Of a DNA stretch of 64,000 nucleotides, positions 23,921-62,378 are shown piece by piece. The translations under genes were made by a program, and so were the position numbers. The notes under the pieces are model-generated. The model saw only the letters and a list, made by a program, of their open reading frames with translations, made no database searches and had not been told where the DNA came from. The DNA is from an uncultured Pelagibacteraceae bacterium (GTDB taxonomy: Bacteria > Pseudomonadota > Alphaproteobacteria > Pelagibacterales > Pelagibacteraceae): positions 56,001-120,000 of the forward strand of contig CACLSR010000003.1 in the NCBI GenBank assembly GCA_902609685.1. The letters run 5' to 3'. The first letter of the stretch is position 1. Each line of letters starts with the position of its first letter.

Positions 23921-23937
23921 TGTTCAAATATTGAACA
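23921..23937. promoter_or_regulatory. Palindromic operator candidate TGTTCAAATATTGAACA
   Basis: Perfect half-sites; 27 nt upstream of ATG 23965 (+). Confidence 0.8.
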
Positions 23938-23964: not shown

Positions 23965-24993
23965 ATGGATTCAAATTTAATATTTAAAGAAATCGAAAAA
24001 CTAGTTGAAATAAATAAATTCGACATTTCTTTCAGATGTAGCAATGTCGGTTTGTGGGAAAAAGTATACAACGAATTAAGTTTCAAAAGTGTTATATTTT
24101 CTGAAAACTTTTTAGATTATCAAAAAATATATAATGATTATTTTGATGATCTAGTCGTCGATATTTCTTTTATTATTTACAATAATAAAGAGCCTGTGGC
24201 ATTGCTACCAGCATTTTATTTTAAAAAAAATAACATAGTAAGTTATTTTGATAGAAATTTGTTTTTACCAATTTTTAAAGATAAGGTAGATCAAATTTCA
24301 CAAAAAAATATTATAAAAAATGTTATTAATTTTTTTATTAAAATTAAAAAGCATTTTAAAATAAATGAAATTAATTTATCAAATCATGGTCCAGAAATAA
24401 AAAAAATTAATTTGAATTTTGATAATTTAAATAAATTTAACACTTTCAATAATCATCACCTATATTTGAACTTGCAAAATACCTCAACTGAAATAAGAAA
24501 AAACTTTAGAAAATCATATTTAAATATTTTAAATAAGAAGATCGTGCATAAAATTCTTGTATTTGACAATAGAATACATGGTAAGAAAATTTGGATTAAT
24601 TTTAAAAAATTACATCATACGGAAGCAAAAAAAAAAACTAGAAGTGATAAAAGTTGGGATAAACAATTTGAAAACTTATGTAATAATAAAGCGATATTTT
24701 TATTTTATCTTCATAATGATAATATGATAGCCGGTTCTTTATTTGACATTAGTCCAGATGAAGCATTTTATTCAGTTGGAGTTTATAATGATTTAGCAAA
24801 ACAAAAGTTTGTAAGTCACTATATTCAAGAAGTAGCAATCAATGAATTTAAAGCAAGAAAAATTAAATGGTATTTTTTAGGAAAATATTTTGAAGATAAT
24901 TCAAAAAATTTAACTAAAAAAGAATATAATATTTCTTTTTTTAAAAAAGGATTTAGTTCAAATATAATTAATAATCAAATAATACAAATTTAA
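23965..24993 (+). CDS. FemAB/GNAT-like acyltransferase family protein
   Basis: LHHTEAKKKTRSDKSWDKQFENL..FLFYLHNDNMIAGSLFDISPDEAFYSVGVYNDLAKQKFVSHYIQEVAINEF. Confidence 0.6.
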   Translation: MDSNLIFKEIEKLVEINKFDISFRCSNVGLWEKVYNELSFKSVIFSENFLDYQKIYNDYFDDLVVDISFIIYNNKEPVALLPAFYFKKNNIVSYFDRNLFLPIFKDKVDQISQKNIIKNVINFFIKIKKHFKINEINLSNHGPEIKKINLNFDNLNKFNTFNNHHLYLNLQNTSTEIRKNFRKSYLNILNKKIVHKILVFDNRIHGKKIWINFKKLHHTEAKKKTRSDKSWDKQFENLCNNKAIFLFYLHNDNMIAGSLFDISPDEAFYSVGVYNDLAKQKFVSHYIQEVAINEFKARKIKWYFLGKYFEDNSKNLTKKEYNISFFKKGFSSNIINNQIIQI

Positions 24994-34086: not shown

Positions 34087-35158
34087 CTTTCACTAAGCTC
34101 AAAACTTTCTTCATTTGTTTTACTGATCCCAAACTAAACCTACAATAGTCCTCAAATCCTTTTACACCTGGTCCTTTACGAAATAGAATTCTCTTAGATT
34201 TAAATTTTTTTTCTAAAGCTATGTTGTTTTTTCCAAGTTTTATATGAAAAAAGTTTGCATATGTATCTATAAAATCAATGTTCAATTTTTTAAGTTCTTT
34301 CGCTAGATAATTCTTTGAATGCTTAACTTCTTTAATGTGTCTTTTTACTAACGAGTAATTTTTTAAACAATATTCTATTACCAAACATGATATTGAATTT
34401 ATTTCATACATAGGCCGAAATTTGTTCATCAAATTTGCATAATTTGAGTTTGTTACAGCATATCCCGCTCTCAGACCTGCTAAACCAAATGATTTAGAGA
34501 AAGTTCTTGTAATTATTAAGTTTTTATATTTTTTAACAAATTCGACATAATTTTTTTCATAAAAACCTTCATAAGCCTCATCAATTACAAGAGGTATATT
34601 AAGTTTCTTTGTTTTCATAAAAATTTTAATCATAGTTTTTTTTGGAATAATAGTCCCAGTTGGACTATTTGGATTAGCTAAAATAATGAGGGAAATTTTT
34701 TTTGTTAAGCTTTTAAATAATCTTTTATAATCGAGTTCAAGTTTTTTGTTGTAACCAATCTTAATAGTTTTCAAGCCATAAATATTAGAATATACATTTA
34801 CCATTCCAAAAGTAGGGTTAATAACTATTATAGTATCATTTTTTTTTGTAAAAAGTTCAAAGCACGTTTTCAGTGAAATATCAGAACCTGCAGATAAATA
34901 AATCATTTGTTCTTTTACTTTAATCTGTTTAGCGATAAGTTTTTTTATTTTTAAAGTATTTGGATATGCAGATAAGTAAAATGAGTTGAGTTTTTTTTTT
35001 AAGAACCTAATAAGTTCTTTATCAAAAGGTATTACTCTTTCGTTCTTGTCTAATCTTAAATATTTTGACCTATCAATAATATCTGGACTTAGTCTATGAA
35101 TTTTTTGTAACCAATTTTTCATTAATTTTGTTCCATTCATTTGCGTGTTTTTTGCCAA
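34067..35158 (-). CDS. HisC-like aminotransferase class I/II; internal Met start plausible
   Basis: YLRLDKNERVIPFD, LSAGSDISLKTCFELF, LANPNSPTGTIIPK, VIDEAYEGF, TRTFSKSFGLAGLRAGYAV. Confidence 0.9.
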   Translation of the reverse strand: MAKNTQMNGTKLMKNWLQKIHRLSPDIIDRSKYLRLDKNERVIPFDKELIRFLKKKLNSFYLSAYPNTLKIKKLIAKQIKVKEQMIYLSAGSDISLKTCFELFTKKNDTIIVINPTFGMVNVYSNIYGLKTIKIGYNKKLELDYKRLFKSLTKKISLIILANPNSPTGTIIPKKTMIKIFMKTKKLNIPLVIDEAYEGFYEKNYVEFVKKYKNLIITRTFSKSFGLAGLRAGYAVTNSNYANLMNKFRPMYEINSISCLVIEYCLKNYSLVKRHIKEVKHSKNYLAKELKKLNIDFIDTYANFFHIKLGKNNIALEKKFKSKRILFRKGPGVKGFEDYCRFSLGSVKQMKKVLSLVKDVSKKY

Positions 35159-35996
35159 TTAGTTCACCTGATACATCACATTTATTACATGGTGAAAAAT
35201 TTCTATCTGCAGATAAAAGTTTTTTTCTTGCAAATTGGAACTTTTGATTCAACCAGATATCTATTATTTTTTGTTTTTTTACATTACCTGCAATAAATTT
35301 CTTCGCCCAATCGTGTGAACACATTTGAACATCACCATTATAATCAATAAAAAAATTATAGGCTGGATAATTACATTTAGTTTTTAAGGATTTTTTCAAT
35401 GCTGGAATGCTATACTCAGCATTTGTAAGAGTTCCACTTCTGTTACTTATATTTAATCCAAAATCTAATTCTTCTGGCATGTATCTATTTCGAATTACAT
35501 ATTGATCTTTGCGTAAACCAGCATCTTGACAAAGATTGTAAAATTGTTTTTCCTCCTTTGGTCCATCGTAAACACTAATTAGTAAAGTAGACAGCCCCGC
35601 ATTAAACAATTTAATTAATCTATCTTTATTCAAAACGTCACCATTGGTTATCAGCTCAATTTGAGCATTGGGTAAAAAATTTCTTGCCTCAATAATATTT
35701 TCGTAAATTTTTTTATGTAATAGAGGTTCGACATAACCAGAATAAATTACCATTCCTTTATATTTTAGATTTGACAATTCAGAAAAAATTTTGTGATGCA
35801 GCTCGTCAGATATAAATTCATTTACATCTTGATAATTAGGATCACTTCTTGGACAAAATGAGCATTTTCTATTACACATACCGGAATTACTTATTTCAAT
35901 GACTGACATTAAAGGAACTTTTTTCTGACTATAAAAATCTAATCTATCTTCAGTAACTTTATTTTTTCTTGGTATATTTTTGTCTTTTATAATCAT
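35094..35996 (-). CDS. Radical SAM/SPASM domain protein
   Basis: IEISNSGMCNRKCSFCPRSDPNYQ, C-terminal MCSHDWAKKFIAGNVKKQKIIDIW..CNKCDVSGE. Confidence 0.9.
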   Translation of the reverse strand: MIIKDKNIPRKNKVTEDRLDFYSQKKVPLMSVIEISNSGMCNRKCSFCPRSDPNYQDVNEFISDELHHKIFSELSNLKYKGMVIYSGYVEPLLHKKIYENIIEARNFLPNAQIELITNGDVLNKDRLIKLFNAGLSTLLISVYDGPKEEKQFYNLCQDAGLRKDQYVIRNRYMPEELDFGLNISNRSGTLTNAEYSIPALKKSLKTKCNYPAYNFFIDYNGDVQMCSHDWAKKFIAGNVKKQKIIDIWLNQKFQFARKKLLSADRNFSPCNKCDVSGELIGKKHANEWNKINEKLVTKNS

Positions 35997-36030: not shown

Positions 36031-36047
36031 TGTTCAATTTTTGAACA
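36031..36047. promoter_or_regulatory. Palindromic operator candidate TGTTCAATTTTTGAACA
   Basis: Same motif as the other sites; 34 nt upstream of the minus-strand gene start at 35996. Confidence 0.8.
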
Positions 36048-41020: not shown

Positions 41021-42061
41021 TTAAAAAAATTTAATTTTTACCTTTTTAAAAATTTTTCTAGTCAAGGGAATTCCCTCATTTATATTTTGTGGAGATCTTT
41101 TTTTTAAAATTTTGTCAAAATTAATTGGTGATAAACCATATCCGGGTCTAATACTCTTGATGTTATTTGTAGTGAACTGCTCACCTTTTTTAATATTCTT
41201 AATAACAAATATAGATCTTCTAAATTTTTTACTTCTATTCTCACTTTTTGATCTACTGAAATAATCCTTTCCAATAAGGTTTTTCGCTAAATTAATCTTT
41301 GTTGAAAATTTCTTTATTTCTCTCCCCTTTAATGAAAATTTTATATCTAAGCCTTTTTTTTGTCCACCAAGTGCAATGTGCTTTTCTACAATTTGGGCTC
41401 CAGCTGAAACTGCTGAAAAAGCAACTAAATCATTTTGACTATGATCAGAAAAACCAATAGTGCAATTGAATTTTTTTTTCAAAATTTTAATATTATTTAA
41501 GTTAAAATCAGAATTTTTTGATGGATAATTGCTAACACAATATAAAAGAGCAATATTTCTTGCTCCATTTTTTTTTGCAAAATTGTAAGCTATTTCAATT
41601 TCTTTAAGGTTTGCCATACCCGTTGATATAATTATTGGTTTTTTTGTCATCGCAACTTTTTTTATCAATGGAAGATCCTGCATTTCAAAAGATGCAATTT
41701 TATAAATTGGACATTCTAATGACTCTAAAAAATCTACCGCTGTCTCATCGAAAGGTGTGCTAAAACATTTGATCCCAATTGTTTTTGCATAATTAAAAAG
41801 ATCTTTATGCCATTCATAAGGTGTCTGGGCTTTTTTATAGAGATCCCATAAATTATTTCCTTTCCATAATCCTTCCTTGATTTTAAAATACTTATTGTCA
41901 CTATTGATTGTCATTGTTTCAGGTTTAAACGTTTGAAGTTTTACTGCATCAGCTCCTGAATCTTTTGCAAGTTTAATTAATTTTTTTGCTCTAAGATAAC
42001 TCCCATTATGATTTGCCGAGATTTCTGCTACAAAAAATGGGAATTTAAATACCTTAGCCAT
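41021..42061 (-). CDS. NeuB/PseI-family sialic/pseudaminic acid synthase with C-terminal SAF domain
   Basis: FVAEISANHNGSYLRAKKLIKLAKDSGADAVKLQTFKPETMT, IISTGMANL, IGFSDHS, SIRPGYGLSP. Confidence 0.95.
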   Translation of the reverse strand: MAKVFKFPFFVAEISANHNGSYLRAKKLIKLAKDSGADAVKLQTFKPETMTINSDNKYFKIKEGLWKGNNLWDLYKKAQTPYEWHKDLFNYAKTIGIKCFSTPFDETAVDFLESLECPIYKIASFEMQDLPLIKKVAMTKKPIIISTGMANLKEIEIAYNFAKKNGARNIALLYCVSNYPSKNSDFNLNNIKILKKKFNCTIGFSDHSQNDLVAFSAVSAGAQIVEKHIALGGQKKGLDIKFSLKGREIKKFSTKINLAKNLIGKDYFSRSKSENRSKKFRRSIFVIKNIKKGEQFTTNNIKSIRPGYGLSPINFDKILKKRSPQNINEGIPLTRKIFKKVKIKFF

Positions 42062-43213
42062 TTATTTAATTATCTTTTTTATATGATGCACAATGTGTTC
42101 CTGTTCTTTATCCTTTAAATCATAAAAAATTGGAATAGATAAAGCTTTGTTATAAAAATTTTCAGTATTATTTAATTTATTATTCAATTTTTTTTTTTTA
42201 TAAAATGGATGTTGTGTAATAGGAATATAGTGGACTTGAGTATTTATACCTGCCTTTCGCAATTTTTTCATTACATCAGACCTAGAAATATTTATTTTTT
42301 TAAAATCAATGAGCAAAATATATAAATGATTGCTACTATTTTCCCTTTTATTTATTTGTAGCGGAGTTGCATTTGTTAAATCTGAAAATTTATTATCGTA
42401 AAATTTAGCAATTTTTTTTCTTTTAACTAAAAATTTATTAATTTTTTTTAATTGAGAAATCCCAAGGGCACACTGAATATCAGTTGACCTGTAATGATAT
42501 CCAAGCTCTTGCATCTCATAGTACCAAGGCTGATTTTTTTGGCTTTTTATAAAAAAATTTTTTTCAATTTTTTCTATTCCATGGCTTCTCAATTTAATCA
42601 ACCTATCATAAATTTTTTTATTATTTGTTGTTATGCAACCTCCCTCACCTGTCGCTATAGATTTGACAGGGTGGAAAGAAAAAACCGTCATATCTGAATA
42701 TTTACATGATCCTACTCTATTTTTTTTGTCGTACTTTGCACCAAAAGAGTGAGCCGCATCTTCATAAATAGTAATATTTTTTTTCTTTGCTAACCTACGT
42801 ATTGAGATCATATCACAAGGAAGACCTCCAAAATGAACAGGTGAAATAGAATTAATTTTAAACTTATTTAAAATCGTTCTTACGCTTTCAATTGAAATAT
42901 TTCCAGTCTCTTCTTCAATATCAGCAAAAGCTACATCCCCTCCAGTGAACAATGAAGAGTTTGCGGTAGAAACAAAAGAAATTGGTGAAGTAAGTAATTT
43001 TTTTCCTTTTGTATTTTCAGAAATAATTGAGGCTAAATGCAGACCTGCCGTACAACTTGACACTACAACTGCATATTTGGAACCAACAAACTTTGATATT
43101 AAACCTTCAAATTTTTTAATTAATGGGCCTTGAGTAAGAAAATTACTTTTTAAAACTTTATTGACTGCTAAAAGATCATCTTTATCAATATGATGTCTTC
43201 CGTAAGGTATCAT
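42062..43213 (-). CDS. pseC: PseC-like UDP-4-amino-sugar aminotransferase (DegT/DnrJ/EryC1)
   Basis: IPYGRHHIDKDDLLAVNKVLKSNFLTQGPLIKKFE, YEDAAHSFGAKY, TVFSFHPVKSIATGEGGCITTN. Confidence 0.92.
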   Translation of the reverse strand: MIPYGRHHIDKDDLLAVNKVLKSNFLTQGPLIKKFEGLISKFVGSKYAVVVSSCTAGLHLASIISENTKGKKLLTSPISFVSTANSSLFTGGDVAFADIEEETGNISIESVRTILNKFKINSISPVHFGGLPCDMISIRRLAKKKNITIYEDAAHSFGAKYDKKNRVGSCKYSDMTVFSFHPVKSIATGEGGCITTNNKKIYDRLIKLRSHGIEKIEKNFFIKSQKNQPWYYEMQELGYHYRSTDIQCALGISQLKKINKFLVKRKKIAKFYDNKFSDLTNATPLQINKRENSSNHLYILLIDFKKINISRSDVMKKLRKAGINTQVHYIPITQHPFYKKKKLNNKLNNTENFYNKALSIPIFYDLKDKEQEHIVHHIKKIIK

Positions 43214-43219
43214 ATAAAT

Positions 43220-44218
43220 TTAAAAACCCTCTTTTTTGTTAATTTTTTTTATTTTGTCTATGTTTAAGAAAGATGGATTTTTATCCGATGTATATTCAAA
43301 ATTTTCTTTAACTTTTTTACCCTTTTCGCCAAGATTGTTTTTTGAATAATTAACTTTCTTTTCAAACTTAATACTTGGAGATATTATATAATAATTTTTA
43401 TAATCGAGCGTTAAATGTGACTCGTTAGCTGATATCATTTTTTCATGTAGTTTTTCACCTGATCTAATTCCAACTATTTTGTTAATTTTTTTTTTATCCA
43501 TAGCTTTTGCTAGATCAACTATCTTAATAGATGGAATTTTTGGAATAAAAATTTCGCCTCCAACCATTCTTGGAAAACAAGAGAATACAAAATTTACCGC
43601 TTCATCAAGCGTAATCCAGAATCTCGTCATTCTATTATCAGTAATTGGAAAATATTTTGAGCCACTTTTTTTTAATTGATCAAATATTTGAACAACTGAC
43701 CCTCTTGATCCCACAACGTTTCCATATCTAACAATTGAGAATCTTATTTTCTTTTTTCCAACAATATTATTTGCAGAGCTAAAAATTTTATCCGAGGTTA
43801 GTTTGGTTGCTCCATAAAGATTAACCGGATCAGATGCTTTATCAGTTGATAGTGCTATAGTTTTTTTAACGTTATTTCTTAACGCAGCTTTGACTACGTT
43901 TTCTGCCCCATTGACATTAGTTTTAATACACTCCATTGGATTATATTCTGCTGCATCTACTTGTTTTAAAGCAGCTGCATGCACAACATAATCCACTCCT
44001 TCCATTGCTAATTCGAGCCTGTTACAATCTCTCACATCGCCAATGAAAAATCTAATACTTGGATGACGTATTTTTTTTGCCATTAGGGATTGTTTTAGTT
44101 CATCCCTTGAATATATGATTAATCTTTTTGGATTGTACTTCTTTAATATTTTTTCAACAAATAGCGAACCGAATGATCCTGTGCCACCTGTTATTAAAAT
44201 ATTTTTATTATTAAACAT
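43220..44218 (-). CDS. pseB: UDP-GlcNAc 4,6-dehydratase (inverting), PseB
   Basis: ILITGGTGSFGSLFVEKIL, IYSRDELKQSLMAKK, FFIGDVRDCNRLELAMEGVDYVVHAAALKQVDAAEYNPMECIKTNVNGAENV. Confidence 0.96.
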   Translation of the reverse strand: MFNNKNILITGGTGSFGSLFVEKILKKYNPKRLIIYSRDELKQSLMAKKIRHPSIRFFIGDVRDCNRLELAMEGVDYVVHAAALKQVDAAEYNPMECIKTNVNGAENVVKAALRNNVKKTIALSTDKASDPVNLYGATKLTSDKIFSSANNIVGKKKIRFSIVRYGNVVGSRGSVVQIFDQLKKSGSKYFPITDNRMTRFWITLDEAVNFVFSCFPRMVGGEIFIPKIPSIKIVDLAKAMDKKKINKIVGIRSGEKLHEKMISANESHLTLDYKNYYIISPSIKFEKKVNYSKNNLGEKGKKVKENFEYTSDKNPSFLNIDKIKKINKKEGF

Positions 44219-44223
44219 TAATT

Positions 44224-44523
44224 TTATTTTATGTTTCTTTTTAATTCCTCATATTCTTTCATTTTTCTTTTCATAAAATTTAATGTAAGTTTAGTTTTCT
44301 CTTTAATTCCTGATGGGGTGAGAATATAGAAATAATTAGATTTATTCGGGTTTTTTTGGAAATTATTAATCTTCACCAAACCTTTATCTTTTAATGCTTT
44401 TAAACAGTAGTTTAGTTTACCTAAGCTAAAACCTAATTCACCTGCAAGTTTTCTCTGGGAATATTTAGGATTTTTATCAATCTTAATGAGTAAATCTAAA
44501 AAATCTTGGTCATCTTTTTTCAT
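44224..44523 (-). CDS. MarR-family EPS-associated transcriptional regulator (winged HTH)
   Basis: 99 aa; NPKYSQRKLAGELGFSLGKLNYCLKALKDKGLVKINNF..YFYILTPSGIKEKTKLTLNFMKRKMKEYEELKRNI. Confidence 0.92.
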   Translation of the reverse strand: MKKDDQDFLDLLIKIDKNPKYSQRKLAGELGFSLGKLNYCLKALKDKGLVKINNFQKNPNKSNYFYILTPSGIKEKTKLTLNFMKRKMKEYEELKRNIK

Positions 44524-44536
44524 AATTAAATTTATC

Positions 44537-44551
44537 GTTCAAAATTTGAAC
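44537..44551. promoter_or_regulatory. Palindromic operator candidate GTTCAAAATTTGAAC inside the regulator's own promoter
   Basis: On the minus strand: TTGACT(-35)-GTTCAAATTTTGAACGA(17)-TAAATT(-10)-TAATT-ATG. Confidence 0.85.
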
Positions 44552-44581
44552 AGTCAAGTATTATTGCTTTTTTTTGAAAAT

Positions 44582-44818
44582 TTAAAAATCTACTTTATAT
44601 TTCTTTAATATATCCATTCCTTTTTTGAAGGAACTAAAATCAATAATATCGTCTGTCTCTAAGGTAATTTTAAAACTTTCCTCTAATCCAGACATCAATG
44701 TCATATGTCCAATCGAATCCCACTCTGGTATATCATTATATTTTAATTCTTCACTAAAATCATCTTTGAGAGCAAGGGAATTTACAAATACTTCTTTATA
44801 TCTTTCTTTGTTATTCAT
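44582..44818 (-). CDS. Acyl carrier protein
   Basis: DDFSEELKYNDIPEWDSIGHMTLMSGLEESFKITLETDDIIDFSSF; phosphopantetheine-site DSIGH. Confidence 0.9.
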   Translation of the reverse strand: MNNKERYKEVFVNSLALKDDFSEELKYNDIPEWDSIGHMTLMSGLEESFKITLETDDIIDFSSFKKGMDILKKYKVDF

Positions 44819-44830
44819 ATTGATAAAAAA

Positions 44831-45616
44831 TTAATCTGTAATTTTATTATAATCGATACCAGTAAAAGGAATTTTCAAAGGAGCCTTGGGATCTCTAAGA
44901 AATGGTATCTTTTGAAGTGGATTAAATCTTTCACAAACAGTAATTCTTACTGAATCTTTAGTCTTATTAGGATAACCACAATGTAAACATGATGAGATCA
45001 TTAAAACTGCTGAGCCAGCATTGACTTCGAGTTCTTTACGTTTAAACTTCGATGATATTTCTTTACTTACATGCGTATATTGTTTTGTCCATCCTTTGTT
45101 GCCATCAGGATGATCAAGAGTATGATCAAAATATCCATGCTTATGCGAATTTTCATAAACAGCTAAACCACCATTATTTTTATTTGTGTCATATAAAGGA
45201 GCCCAAAATAGCAAGCTATCAACAGATAATTGAGATGTTTCTTGATGAGGTTCAAGTAAGTGAATGTTCTCGTCATCGTATACACCAATACATGGTCTAC
45301 CCGAATATATTACTTTTGAGTTAAAATATTGTTTTACAATACTCACTAGAGAGGGTGAATGTAATTTTTGCAATAAATTTATATCTCTACCAGCAATATC
45401 ATACCAATTTCCTTTTAACTTTCGATCGAAGTTTCTAACTTGATAATATTTTTTTTGTAAGTCAGTTTCGCCATTAGGTTGGATATAGTTAAGTGCATCT
45501 AGTAGAGAGTCTCTCATTTTTTTTAGATCATCTTGGTTAAAACAATTTTCCAAGATACAAAAACCCTTCTCTTTTATTTCATTAATAATTTCAGTGTTTG
45601 TTTTTTTTAATTTCAT
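44831..45616 (-). CDS. Phytanoyl-CoA dioxygenase (PhyH)-family Fe/2OG oxygenase
   Basis: GFCILENCFNQDDLKKMRDSL, LLEPHQETSQLSVDSLLFWAPL, VNAGSAVLMISSCLHCG. The ORF-track start (TTG 45655) overlaps the palindrome; ATG 45616 preferred. Confidence 0.88.
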   Translation of the reverse strand: MKLKKTNTEIINEIKEKGFCILENCFNQDDLKKMRDSLLDALNYIQPNGETDLQKKYYQVRNFDRKLKGNWYDIAGRDINLLQKLHSPSLVSIVKQYFNSKVIYSGRPCIGVYDDENIHLLEPHQETSQLSVDSLLFWAPLYDTNKNNGGLAVYENSHKHGYFDHTLDHPDGNKGWTKQYTHVSKEISSKFKRKELEVNAGSAVLMISSCLHCGYPNKTKDSVRITVCERFNPLQKIPFLRDPKAPLKIPFTGIDYNKITD

Positions 45617-45648: not shown

Positions 45649-45665
45649 TGTTCAATAGTTGAACA
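45649..45665. promoter_or_regulatory. Palindromic operator candidate TGTTCAATAGTTGAACA
   Basis: On the minus strand TTGAAC-17 nt-TATAGT, upstream of ATG 45616. Confidence 0.83.
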
Positions 45666-54702: not shown

Positions 54703-55605
54703 CTATTTGATAGCACCTCTATCTTTGCCAAATTGGTCTCTGTATATTTGACCAACACTAACACTGTCTTCTTGTTGAGTTGGATCAATATCTCTTATTG
54801 CGAGTAAATATTTTTGAGCATCATTTAGTCTATTTTTAGTTGGAATACTTAAAAATTTTTTGTAATTTAAAAGTTGACCTTCATCTCTATTTTTAATTTG
54901 AATAAAAATAGTCTTTCTTGGTTTTCCATTTTCATTTTTTGCTCCAGCGTGCCAAGTGTTTAAATTTAAAATCACAATACTTCCTGCCTCTGTTTCAGCC
55001 CTTATCTCATTTTTTTGTTGCTCATTGGTGTTAATATAATTATCAGGCCATCCAATTTTTTTATGAGACCCGGGAATAATTCTGGTAGCACCATTTTCTT
55101 TTCTAGACTCGTCTAAATAAATATAACAAACAACACCGTGAAATTTTTCTTTTTCGTATTGCCTCGGTATACAATCAATATGAATTGCTTGTTCACCGTA
55201 GCCTTTATGTGGATTTCTAAAATTTAAACCTCCAACTTTAATATCGTCTTGAATAACCTCATGTGCAGCACTCAAAATTTCGGGTATTAATATAAGCTCA
55301 CCAAAAAGAGGATCTTTGTCTATTAAGTTGCCAAGTCTATCACAATTATTTTCAAATAATTTTCCTTTTTTATAATTTTTTTCTTTTCCTTCCCATCCTC
55401 CTTTTTCTCCTTCGGATTTAATTAAATCACTTGTAATTTTATTCAACTGTTTTAAATTTTCACGAATAAATTTGGTTGGTGGTAAAATTAAATAACCTTT
55501 TTCGTTTAGAAATAGTTTTTGAGTACTAGTTAAAGTAGTGTTATTAATTCCTAACTTTTTAAAAACATCTTTTGTATCTGTTATTTGATGAGTAAAATTG
55601 ACCAT
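54703..55605 (-). CDS. Phytanoyl-CoA dioxygenase (PhyH)-family Fe/2OG oxygenase
   Basis: FLNEKGYLILPPTKFI, YGEQAIHIDCIPRQ, ENGATRIIPGSHKKIGWPD, TEAGSIVILNLNTWHAGAKNENGKPRKTIFIQ. Confidence 0.9.
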   Translation of the reverse strand: MVNFTHQITDTKDVFKKLGINNTTLTSTQKLFLNEKGYLILPPTKFIRENLKQLNKITSDLIKSEGEKGGWEGKEKNYKKGKLFENNCDRLGNLIDKDPLFGELILIPEILSAAHEVIQDDIKVGGLNFRNPHKGYGEQAIHIDCIPRQYEKEKFHGVVCYIYLDESRKENGATRIIPGSHKKIGWPDNYINTNEQQKNEIRAETEAGSIVILNLNTWHAGAKNENGKPRKTIFIQIKNRDEGQLLNYKKFLSIPTKNRLNDAQKYLLAIRDIDPTQQEDSVSVGQIYRDQFGKDRGAIK

Positions 55606-55623
55606 AATCTAAGAATTTATATC

Positions 55624-55638
55624 GTTCATTTATTGAAC
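55624..55638. promoter_or_regulatory. Palindromic operator candidate GTTCATTTATTGAAC in a divergent promoter
   Basis: Plus strand TTGAAC-17-TATAAT; minus strand TTTACT-17(containing operator)-TATAAA. Confidence 0.83.
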
Positions 55639-55672
55639 AGTAAAGTTAAAAAAACTATAATATTACTTATAG

Positions 55673-57816: not shown

Positions 57817-57831
57817 GTTCAAATATTGAAC
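57817..57831. promoter_or_regulatory. Palindromic operator candidate GTTCAAATATTGAAC between divergent genes
   Basis: Plus strand TTGAAC-17-TATATT, upstream of ATG 57866. Confidence 0.83.
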
Positions 57832-57865: not shown

Positions 57866-58759
57866 ATGGTTCGTAACAAAATAGTAAAAAAATTTATATT
57901 AGGTTCAGCTCAATTTGGCAACAAATATGGCATTGATAATCCTAACGCCTCTAAATCAAAAAAAAAATCTCTGAATATCATTAAGCACGCAAAGTTTTCT
58001 GGAATAAATACAATTGATTTAGGGGACAAATATAAAAGTTATAAAAATATCTTTACTAATTTTAAGTTACAAGATTGGAAAATTTCAATGAAGATATCTA
58101 GCAACGTAATAAAAAAATATTCTTCTAAAAATAAATTTCAAGAATTTTTTTTTAATATGTTAAATCATTTAAATAAAAATAAAATAGAATATTTTTTATT
58201 TCATAATTCAAGCGATTTACAAAAAAAAAATGGGAAAAAAATATTTAATCATCTTTTAATTCTTAAAAGAAAAGGTTTGATTAAAAAAATAGGTGTTTCA
58301 GTTTATTCACCTAAGGAACTTAATAATATCTTAAAAAGTTTTGAAATTGATGTGGTTCAATTGCCACTTAATGTTTTCGATCAAAGATTCAATCAAGCTA
58401 AAATTGTAAAAAAATTAAAAAAAAGAAAAATTGAGGTACATGCTAGATCAGTTTTTTTGCAGGGATTACTATTATCAAATAAAAAAAGATTAAAAAAAAA
58501 ATATTTTAAAGATAATAAATTACTAAATAGTTGGTTTGACTATGTAAAAATAAATAATATCAATGCTGTCAATGAATGTTTAAATTTTGTTTTAAAAAAA
58601 AAATTTGTGAGCAAAATAGTAATTGGCATAAATAAATTAGAACAAATAAAATTGATTCTAAAAAAAAATAAGTCAAAATTGAATTCAGAAGATCTTGATA
58701 TGTTTCATAACCATGATATTAAATTGATCGATCCAAGAAAATGGAAAAAAATAAAGTAA
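57866..58759 (+). CDS. Aldo/keto reductase family protein
   Basis: FILGSAQFGNKYGIDNPN, IDLGDKYKSYKNIF, IEYFLFHNSSDL, KIGVSVYSPKEL, IDVVQLPLNVFDQRF. Confidence 0.88.
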   Translation: MVRNKIVKKFILGSAQFGNKYGIDNPNASKSKKKSLNIIKHAKFSGINTIDLGDKYKSYKNIFTNFKLQDWKISMKISSNVIKKYSSKNKFQEFFFNMLNHLNKNKIEYFLFHNSSDLQKKNGKKIFNHLLILKRKGLIKKIGVSVYSPKELNNILKSFEIDVVQLPLNVFDQRFNQAKIVKKLKKRKIEVHARSVFLQGLLLSNKKRLKKKYFKDNKLLNSWFDYVKINNINAVNECLNFVLKKKFVSKIVIGINKLEQIKLILKKNKSKLNSEDLDMFHNHDIKLIDPRKWKKIK

Positions 58760-60818: not shown

Positions 60819-60835
60819 TGTTCAAAAGTTGAACA
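60819..60835. promoter_or_regulatory. Palindromic operator candidate TGTTCAAAAGTTGAACA
   Basis: Directly follows a TATAAT-like box (60814-60819) and lies 10 nt before ATG 60846. Confidence 0.8.
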
Positions 60836-60845
60836 ATACGCAATA

Positions 60846-62378
60846 ATGAAAATTTTAGACTGCACACTTAGAGATGGCGGATATTACACTGGTTGGAATT
60901 TTTCAAAAAATCTTTTTGAAAATTATCTTAAAACAGTATCAAAACTAAATATATCAATTATTGAGCTAGGATATTTATCAGATGTAAAAGATGAAAATGG
61001 TCTTTTCTATCATCTAAATAAAGAAATCTTAAAAAAAGCAAAATCAATAATTCGTAAAGATCAAAAAGTTTTTGCTATGGTTAATTTTAAAGAGATAAAA
61101 AGTTTTCAACAACTTGACAAGCTTCTTTTTGATAAAAATAAAGTTTTGGATGGAATTAGATTTGCTGTTCCACCATCAAAAATAAAAGATTTAAATAAAA
61201 TGATCAATAAAATTTCAAATAAATATAAAGACCTGAGTATAAACGTTAACTTAATGTATCTAAGTAAGTGGATTCATAATGAAAAAATGATTGTAAAATT
61301 ATTTAAAAATATTTCAAAAAATATTGATATCTTATCTTTTGTTGATAGTTATGGTGCTCTTACTCCTGCACAGATTGAAAAATTTTTACACCAAGTTCAA
61401 GATAAGAATTTATATAAAATTAAAATTGGAACTCATTTCCATAATAATTGTGGTTTAGCTTTAGCAAATTCTTTAGCAGCATATGAAGCTGGAAGCGATG
61501 TAACCGATACTACATTCACTGGTATGGGGAGGGGTGCTGGAAATGCTGAAACAGAATTACTTTTGGCAAATTTCTCGGATAAAAATAATAAAATCTCTGG
61601 TTTTGAATTAAGTAATTTATTGGAAATTTTTTATGAAATGAAAAAAAAAATGAATTGGGGGAGTTCTTTTGCATATGCTTTCGCTGCAATGAATGGTTTT
61701 TCACAAAGTCAAATGATGGAGCTTATACAAAATAGGAGATTGGACCCCGGAACAGCTGTAAAGGCTATATCAAATCAAACAAAAAAGAGGGATCAAATCA
61801 AATTAAGAAATATTAAAAACTTAGTCAAACTAAAAAATTCTAAGAAAAATTCTCCTATATTAATTGGAGGGGCACCAAGTCTTTTAGATTATGGCGATTA
61901 TTTTTTTGATAAAGTAGATAATTTGAGGCCAGTTATTTTAAGTGGGAGCAATGCTCTTTTTAATTTTATAAAATTAAACAAAAAAATTAAGAATCCATTA
62001 ATTTTAATTCTAAGTGGAAATGAAGTAAAAAAAATGAGTGTCTTCAAAATTAAAAATATATTAAACAAAATAAAACTTTATGGAATTATCGCTGAAAAAG
62101 AATTTCTTCCTAAAAATTTCAAGTTTTACAACAAAAAAAACCTGGTGACTTCGAGTAGTATTGCATTAAATCCTTTGCACTTAACTGGATTGGTTCTGGA
62201 AAGTTTAAAAATAAAAAAACTTTCTCTTGCATTTTTTGATGGAAATCCTGAAAGTGAAAAAGGTAGAATAGTAATGCAGGACACTCAAGACAGCGTAGAA
62301 AAAATTAATCAAATAGGTGTTAAGGTTCATACCCTTACTAAAAGTTATCTAAAAGTAAAACAAGAAAATTTTTGGTGA
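60846..62378 (+). CDS. HMGL-like (DRE-TIM) aldolase with an extra C-terminal domain
   Basis: MKILDCTLRDGGYYTGWNFSK, LSFVDSYGALTPAQIEKFL, IGTHFHNNCGLALANSLAAYEAGSDVTDTTFTGMGRGAGNAETELLL. Confidence 0.9.
   Translation: MKILDCTLRDGGYYTGWNFSKNLFENYLKTVSKLNISIIELGYLSDVKDENGLFYHLNKEILKKAKSIIRKDQKVFAMVNFKEIKSFQQLDKLLFDKNKVLDGIRFAVPPSKIKDLNKMINKISNKYKDLSINVNLMYLSKWIHNEKMIVKLFKNISKNIDILSFVDSYGALTPAQIEKFLHQVQDKNLYKIKIGTHFHNNCGLALANSLAAYEAGSDVTDTTFTGMGRGAGNAETELLLANFSDKNNKISGFELSNLLEIFYEMKKKMNWGSSFAYAFAAMNGFSQSQMMELIQNRRLDPGTAVKAISNQTKKRDQIKLRNIKNLVKLKNSKKNSPILIGGAPSLLDYGDYFFDKVDNLRPVILSGSNALFNFIKLNKKIKNPLILILSGNEVKKMSVFKIKNILNKIKLYGIIAEKEFLPKNFKFYNKKNLVTSSSIALNPLHLTGLVLESLKIKKLSLAFFDGNPESEKGRIVMQDTQDSVEKINQIGVKVHTLTKSYLKVKQENFW

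Follow-up and report, generated by a model that had tools for sequence, protein, structure and literature searches.

A putative MarR_EPS operator in the promoter of its own gene and in a surface-polysaccharide island of a Pelagibacteraceae genome

In the window, the whole stretch of 64,000 nucleotides analyzed here from an uncultured Pelagibacteraceae bacterium, a 15-bp palindrome is very probably the operator for MarR_EPS (TIGR04176), the regulator encoded behind it, and occlusion at such sites would repress the regulator gene itself, the adjoining pse genes through read-through, and a local surface-polysaccharide regulon. A regulator dimer on the operator in the promoter spacer, between the -35 and -10 hexamers, would block RNA polymerase, and pseB-pseC-pseI would be silenced along with the regulator gene; six other sites in the window would be bound as well, and release of the regulator from DNA would bring the whole island on together. 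In most relatives, a second dimer, lying over the -10, the start site, and the start codon, would also exclude RNA polymerase. The sequences themselves show the palindrome, its geometry, and its conservation and co-occurrence with the regulator; binding, dimerization, repression rather than activation, co-transcription, and a signal are all elements that we infer.

Table 1. Regulator locus and putative operators in the window.
Feature	Position	Strand	Remarks
Putative operator GTTCAAATATTGAAC	23922..23936	+	28 bp before ORF 23965-24993
Putative operator GTTCAAAAATTGAAC	36032..36046	-	35 bp before ORF 35094-35996
pseB-pseC-pseI	41021..44218	-	behind regulator gene, gaps 5, 6, 0 nt
MarR_EPS regulator gene (TIGR04176), 99 aa	44224..44523	-	NCBIfam, predicted structure
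-10 hexamer TAAATT	44529..44534	-	17-bp spacer, GA between operator and -10
Putative operator GTTCAAATTTTGAAC in -35/-10 spacer	44537..44551	-	sequence, genome count, relatives
-35 hexamer TTGACT	44552..44557	-	directly abuts operator
Putative operator GTTCAACTATTGAAC	45650..45664	-	33 bp before ATG (45616), PhyH-family ORF 44831-45616
Promoter with near-exact putative operator	55606..55644	-	before PhyH-family gene 54703-55605
Putative operator GTTCAAATATTGAAC	57817..57831	+	34 bp before aldo/keto reductase ORF 57866-58759
Putative operator GTTCAAAAGTTGAAC	60820..60834	+	just after TATAAT, 11 bp before HMGL-like ORF 60846-62378

The 99-aa protein scored 129.5 bits against TIGR04176, for which the family cut-off is 88. 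Pfam returned HTH_24 only; although no MarR model was matched there, the MarR-type identity proposed in the first-pass annotation is supported by the NCBIfam assignment and by the AlphaFold model (pLDDT 84), for which the top PDB matches were MarR proteins (E about 2e-4), with MepR, CouR, and SlyA bound to DNA among the structure matches. The gene sits in an exopolysaccharide-type cluster, with pseB, pseC, and pseI adjoining and more sugar genes elsewhere in the window, and pseB-pseC-pseI are probably co-transcribed with it. A 78-aa ORF at 44582-44818 (minus strand) contains the sequence WDSIGH, a motif characteristic of acyl carrier proteins, and had no NCBIfam or Pfam match at the thresholds used.

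Read along the minus strand, the promoter region follows the order TTGACT, palindrome, TAAATT, TAATT, ATG, base for base and coordinate for coordinate as first annotated; the palindrome has perfect 7-bp arms (GTTCAAA and TTTGAAC around a central T), and the 17-bp spacer of palindrome plus 2 nt (GA) and the 5 nt (TAATT) from the -10 end to the ATG are likewise exact. The ATG at 44523-44521 is the sole possible ATG, GTG, or TTG start, because the operator contains an in-frame stop, TGA (44541-44539), and no start codon occurs between the two. Taken by itself, the 9/12 sigma-70 match is at chance level (16 in 3 kb, as against 18.0 ± 4.1 in shuffles), and promoter scanning was therefore rejected as sole evidence; it is comparison with relatives that makes the promoter assignment convincing.

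TIGR04176 proteins above the cut-off were found in 96 of 196 Pelagibacteraceae genomes. A GTTCA-N5-TGAAC site occurred within 75 nt upstream of the regulator in 102 of 112 locus records, which include some genes fetched twice; after removal of duplicates, 87 distinct SAR11 upstream regions were left, and the palindrome lay in a promoter, the regulator's own core promoter, in 80 of these. In 53 of the 80, a spacer operator was accompanied by a second one located at or beyond the -10, whereas 15 had the downstream operator only and 12, the window gene among them, had the spacer operator only. Thus, most SAR11 relatives keep a second operator between the -10 and the ATG, sometimes over the start codon, which it spans exactly in nine (GTTCANNNNATGAAC); judging from these relatives, the window gene has lost it. 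When 54 tandem cases were aligned on the upstream operator, blind to any promoter, TTKAC started at -6 in 49 (every other offset was seen at most 4 times) and a -10-like hexamer started at +17 in 42. The spacer is 17 bp in the window gene and most relatives, and the starts of the tandem operators are mostly 23-24 bp apart, slightly more than two turns of the helix, a distance at which two dimers might touch. Several relatives without a spacer operator (L053, L063, L104) keep CTTTAC and, at a spacing of 16-17 bp, a -10, which argues that the promoter exists independently of the operator. By this comparison, the -35/operator/-10 arrangement is fixed across relatives.

The same palindrome accompanies the family beyond SAR11. 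Among 28 non-SAR11 relatives (37-57% identity to the 99-aa protein, two of them just under the family cut-off), 25 had GTTCA-N4/5-TGAAC within 150 nt upstream, where shuffles gave an expectation of 0.025, and three lacked the site. On named plasmids, the site was present upstream of six of the seven genes: those of Loktanella, Pacificitalea, Sulfitobacter, Limimaricola, and Roseivivax have N4 sites and that of Chelatococcus has two N5 sites, whereas the Aliarcobacter plasmid gene has a near match only. The site also spans the start codon in some non-SAR11 relatives (L121, L122, L124). Since the palindrome precedes family genes beyond SAR11, it belongs to the regulator family, and this is the main evidence for autoregulation. 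The spacer operator and autoregulation claimed in the first-pass annotation are therefore strongly supported by comparison, namely by the 80 of 87 SAR11 regions, the fixed -35 and -10 offsets, and the 25 of 28 genes outside SAR11. Compared with the N5 site present elsewhere, the N4 site has one base fewer, a possible co-change of protein and DNA.

Several side observations concern these distant members. In one alphaproteobacterial family (f13; L137-L145, e.g., L137:1-1785, minus strand), the MarR_EPS domain forms the N-terminus of a long protein, and in L137, the one f13 protein scanned, the remainder is a bifunctional sulfate adenylyltransferase/APS kinase (PRK05537), a regulator-enzyme fusion; GTTCA-N4-TGAAC was present in all nine f13 fusions and in all five stand-alone Rhodobacterales genes (L171-L173, L175, L176). 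Longer relatives of 213 aa (L166 and L168, both below the family cut-off) and 235 aa (L177) were also found; in L166-L168 and L177, GTTCA-N5-TGAAC occurs in tandem at a distance of 27-28 bp, and in L166-L168 an RfaH-like protein is encoded behind the longer relative. L171-L173, L175, L176, and L130 have a GTGCGG(T/C)AGCC-like motif, which we take to resemble the E. coli ops element, either between the operator and the gene or close to where the gene begins. In L171, MarR_EPS and a NusG-family gene are oriented divergently. On the Aliarcobacter butzleri plasmid (L174), the MarR_EPS gene adjoins tet(H), and the annotation of the stretch shown includes no polysaccharide gene.

Within the 1.19-Mb genome of the window, the exact pattern GTTCAANNNTTGAAC occurs six times; all six copies are inside the window (spanning 23922 to 60834), noncoding, 11-35 bp upstream of a start codon, and in the surface-polysaccharide island. 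Since the background, estimated from 28 reversed-pattern matches in 196 genomes, is about 0.14 per genome, the Poisson probability of six sites is about 1e-8; true matches in the 97 genomes without the regulator numbered 12. Searching the window with up to three mismatches gave 17 matches against 17.6 expected, and since such loose matching is at chance level, only exact or near-exact sites are informative. A seventh window site, one mismatch from GTTCAANNNTTGAAC, is at 55624, where the PhyH-family gene starting at 55605 shares the -35/operator/-10 build of the regulator gene: TTTACT (55644-55639), GTTCAATAAATGAAC (55638-55624), GA, TATAAA (55621-55616), 10 nt, and ATG. The operator at 36032 overlaps a -10, TATGTT, with TTGACA 16 bp upstream of that -10. 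The spacer operator was already proposed in the first-pass annotation, whereas the second operator of the relatives, the window's six further sites, and the occurrence of the site throughout the family are additions made here.

Across genomes, exact sites were found in 82 of 99 with the regulator (17 carry the regulator and no exact site) and in 10 of 97 without it, several of the latter 10 being incomplete genomes (Fisher p 2e-26, a statistic that ignores kinship). In the 80 loci, 105 of 110 exact sites were noncoding; each of the 23 found at a distance from the regulator lay within 200 bp upstream of a start. Among the products of the genes behind these sites are NDP-sugar epimerases and dehydratases, cytidylyltransferases, UDP-GlcNAc 2-epimerase, APS kinase, a sulfotransferase, methyltransferases, ABC exporters, and PEP mutase; the putative targets are mainly surface-polysaccharide enzymes.

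Repression by occlusion, suggested by the position of the operator over the core promoter, is the best-supported mechanism, and activation may occur at some promoters. That the regulator instead activates, or acts in both directions, at these sites is improbable, though it has a precedent in the MarR-like WggR of Sinorhizobium meliloti, which binds short palindromes in several exopolysaccharide promoters and either activates with PhoB or represses (PMC10458429, PMC1403797). An activator is disfavored by operator position: the operators are located within the spacer or across the -10, the start site, and the start codon, and a dimer at such positions would be expected to exclude polymerase. Moreover, a 17-bp spacer is already optimal, unlike those of MerR-type activated promoters, and MerR-type activation by DNA distortion was rejected since the spacer, here and in most relatives, is not the overlong 19-20 bp. 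The palindrome might also be read as an RNA hairpin, a terminator, or a scattered repeat rather than a protein-binding site, and it is indeed a perfect inverted repeat with several copies in one region; however, the arms are A+T-rich around a center of 1-3 nt, and the spacer operator, being upstream of the start site, is not transcribed from its own promoter, so a hairpin was rejected on position. In addition, the promoter offsets of the copies are fixed, and their occurrence tracks one regulator family across genomes; we regard this whole group of explanations as extremely improbable.

With 5 nt from the -10 to the ATG, the expected transcription start of the window gene is the A of the ATG, and the true one is probably there or no more than a few bases away. 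The leaderless mRNA claimed in the first-pass annotation is thus plausible for the window gene but is no family trait, and for MarR_EPS genes in general a very short leader seems the fair description: of 12 relatives without the downstream operator, 8 have 5-10 nt between -10 and ATG, and relatives with this operator, which fills the gap, mostly have 16-19 nt. No Shine-Dalgarno-like stretch was seen in any of 112 regulator genes, which suggests that leader length follows the operator and not a ribosome site. Alternatively, and with a probability that is appreciable if well below even, the short distance from -10 to ATG gives a false impression, and the mRNA has a short leader or arises by read-through from an upstream promoter rather than being leaderless. 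The 16-19 nt of most relatives would correspond to leaders of roughly 9-12 nt, and read-through is possible because the upstream gene, on the same strand and 58 bp away, has no terminator that we could find. A leader is opposed by the conserved -10 position, which leaves just 5 nt in the window gene, and would not be needed, since SAR11 genes hardly use Shine-Dalgarno sites (16 of 282 genes, vs. 8 of 282 in a control stretch). General SAR11 leader length estimated from TATAAT positions was flat, without signal, and a literature search found no transcription start-site data for SAR11.

Directly behind the regulator, 48 of 80 SAR11 loci (within L036-L113, e.g., L041:10293-10787, plus strand) encode a protein of ~165 aa, which was found in 59 of 196 genomes, nearly always adjoining the regulator, and is absent from the genome of the window. 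Pfam gave no match for the eight scanned; RfaH and NusG were the top matches of its predicted fold (pLDDT 76, C-terminal part poor), and its profile aligned weakly with the RfaH-like proteins behind distant family members (E 0.001, probability 21%). An E. coli ops-like element (GCGGTAGC) near the SAR11 regulators was considered and set aside, the leaders being too short to hold it. Tentatively, with the chances a little short of even, we propose an old two-gene cassette for variable surface-polysaccharide islands, in which MarR_EPS would repress via GTTCA-N4/5-TGAAC over the core promoter or start codon and a diverged RfaH/NusG-like antiterminator would let polymerase finish long operons; the window would have kept the regulator and regulon and lost the antiterminator and second operator.

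A literature search found no operator, two-operator build, or regulon described for TIGR04176, to which a candidate operator and regulon are assigned here. With a putative DNA-binding site assigned, the regulon of a widespread regulator family would become predictable, and SAR11 bacteria gain a candidate regulon, under a transcription factor, for their surface sugars. Because such sugars commonly serve phages as receptors, a local switch for a sugar island would bear on phage-host biology. The operator is short and specific, which makes in vitro study feasible without growing SAR11.

The window gene is like TIGR04176 MarR_EPS in passing the family cut-off and in its polysaccharide-cluster location. 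The layout of promoter and operator is the classic one, and the regulator resembles autoregulated MarR-family repressors of the MarR, MepR, and SlyA type in its winged-helix fold, the palindrome in its own promoter, and its short protein; however, it differs in having only 99 aa, in the two operators of most MarR_EPS relatives, in an operator that can contain the start codon, and in a putative regulon that, in the genome of the window, does not extend beyond one polysaccharide island. WggR (ExpG) of Sinorhizobium meliloti is similar in being MarR-type, in its exopolysaccharide cluster, and in its short palindromic sites in several cluster promoters (PMC1403797). Membership of WggR in MarR_EPS gained no support from searches of a plasmid collection, which may or may not include pSymB; two family members used as queries retrieved no Sinorhizobium record among the matches. 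Unlike the repression proposed for MarR_EPS, WggR activates galactoglucan genes together with PhoB, although it can also act as a repressor and is thus dual in action (PMC10458429).
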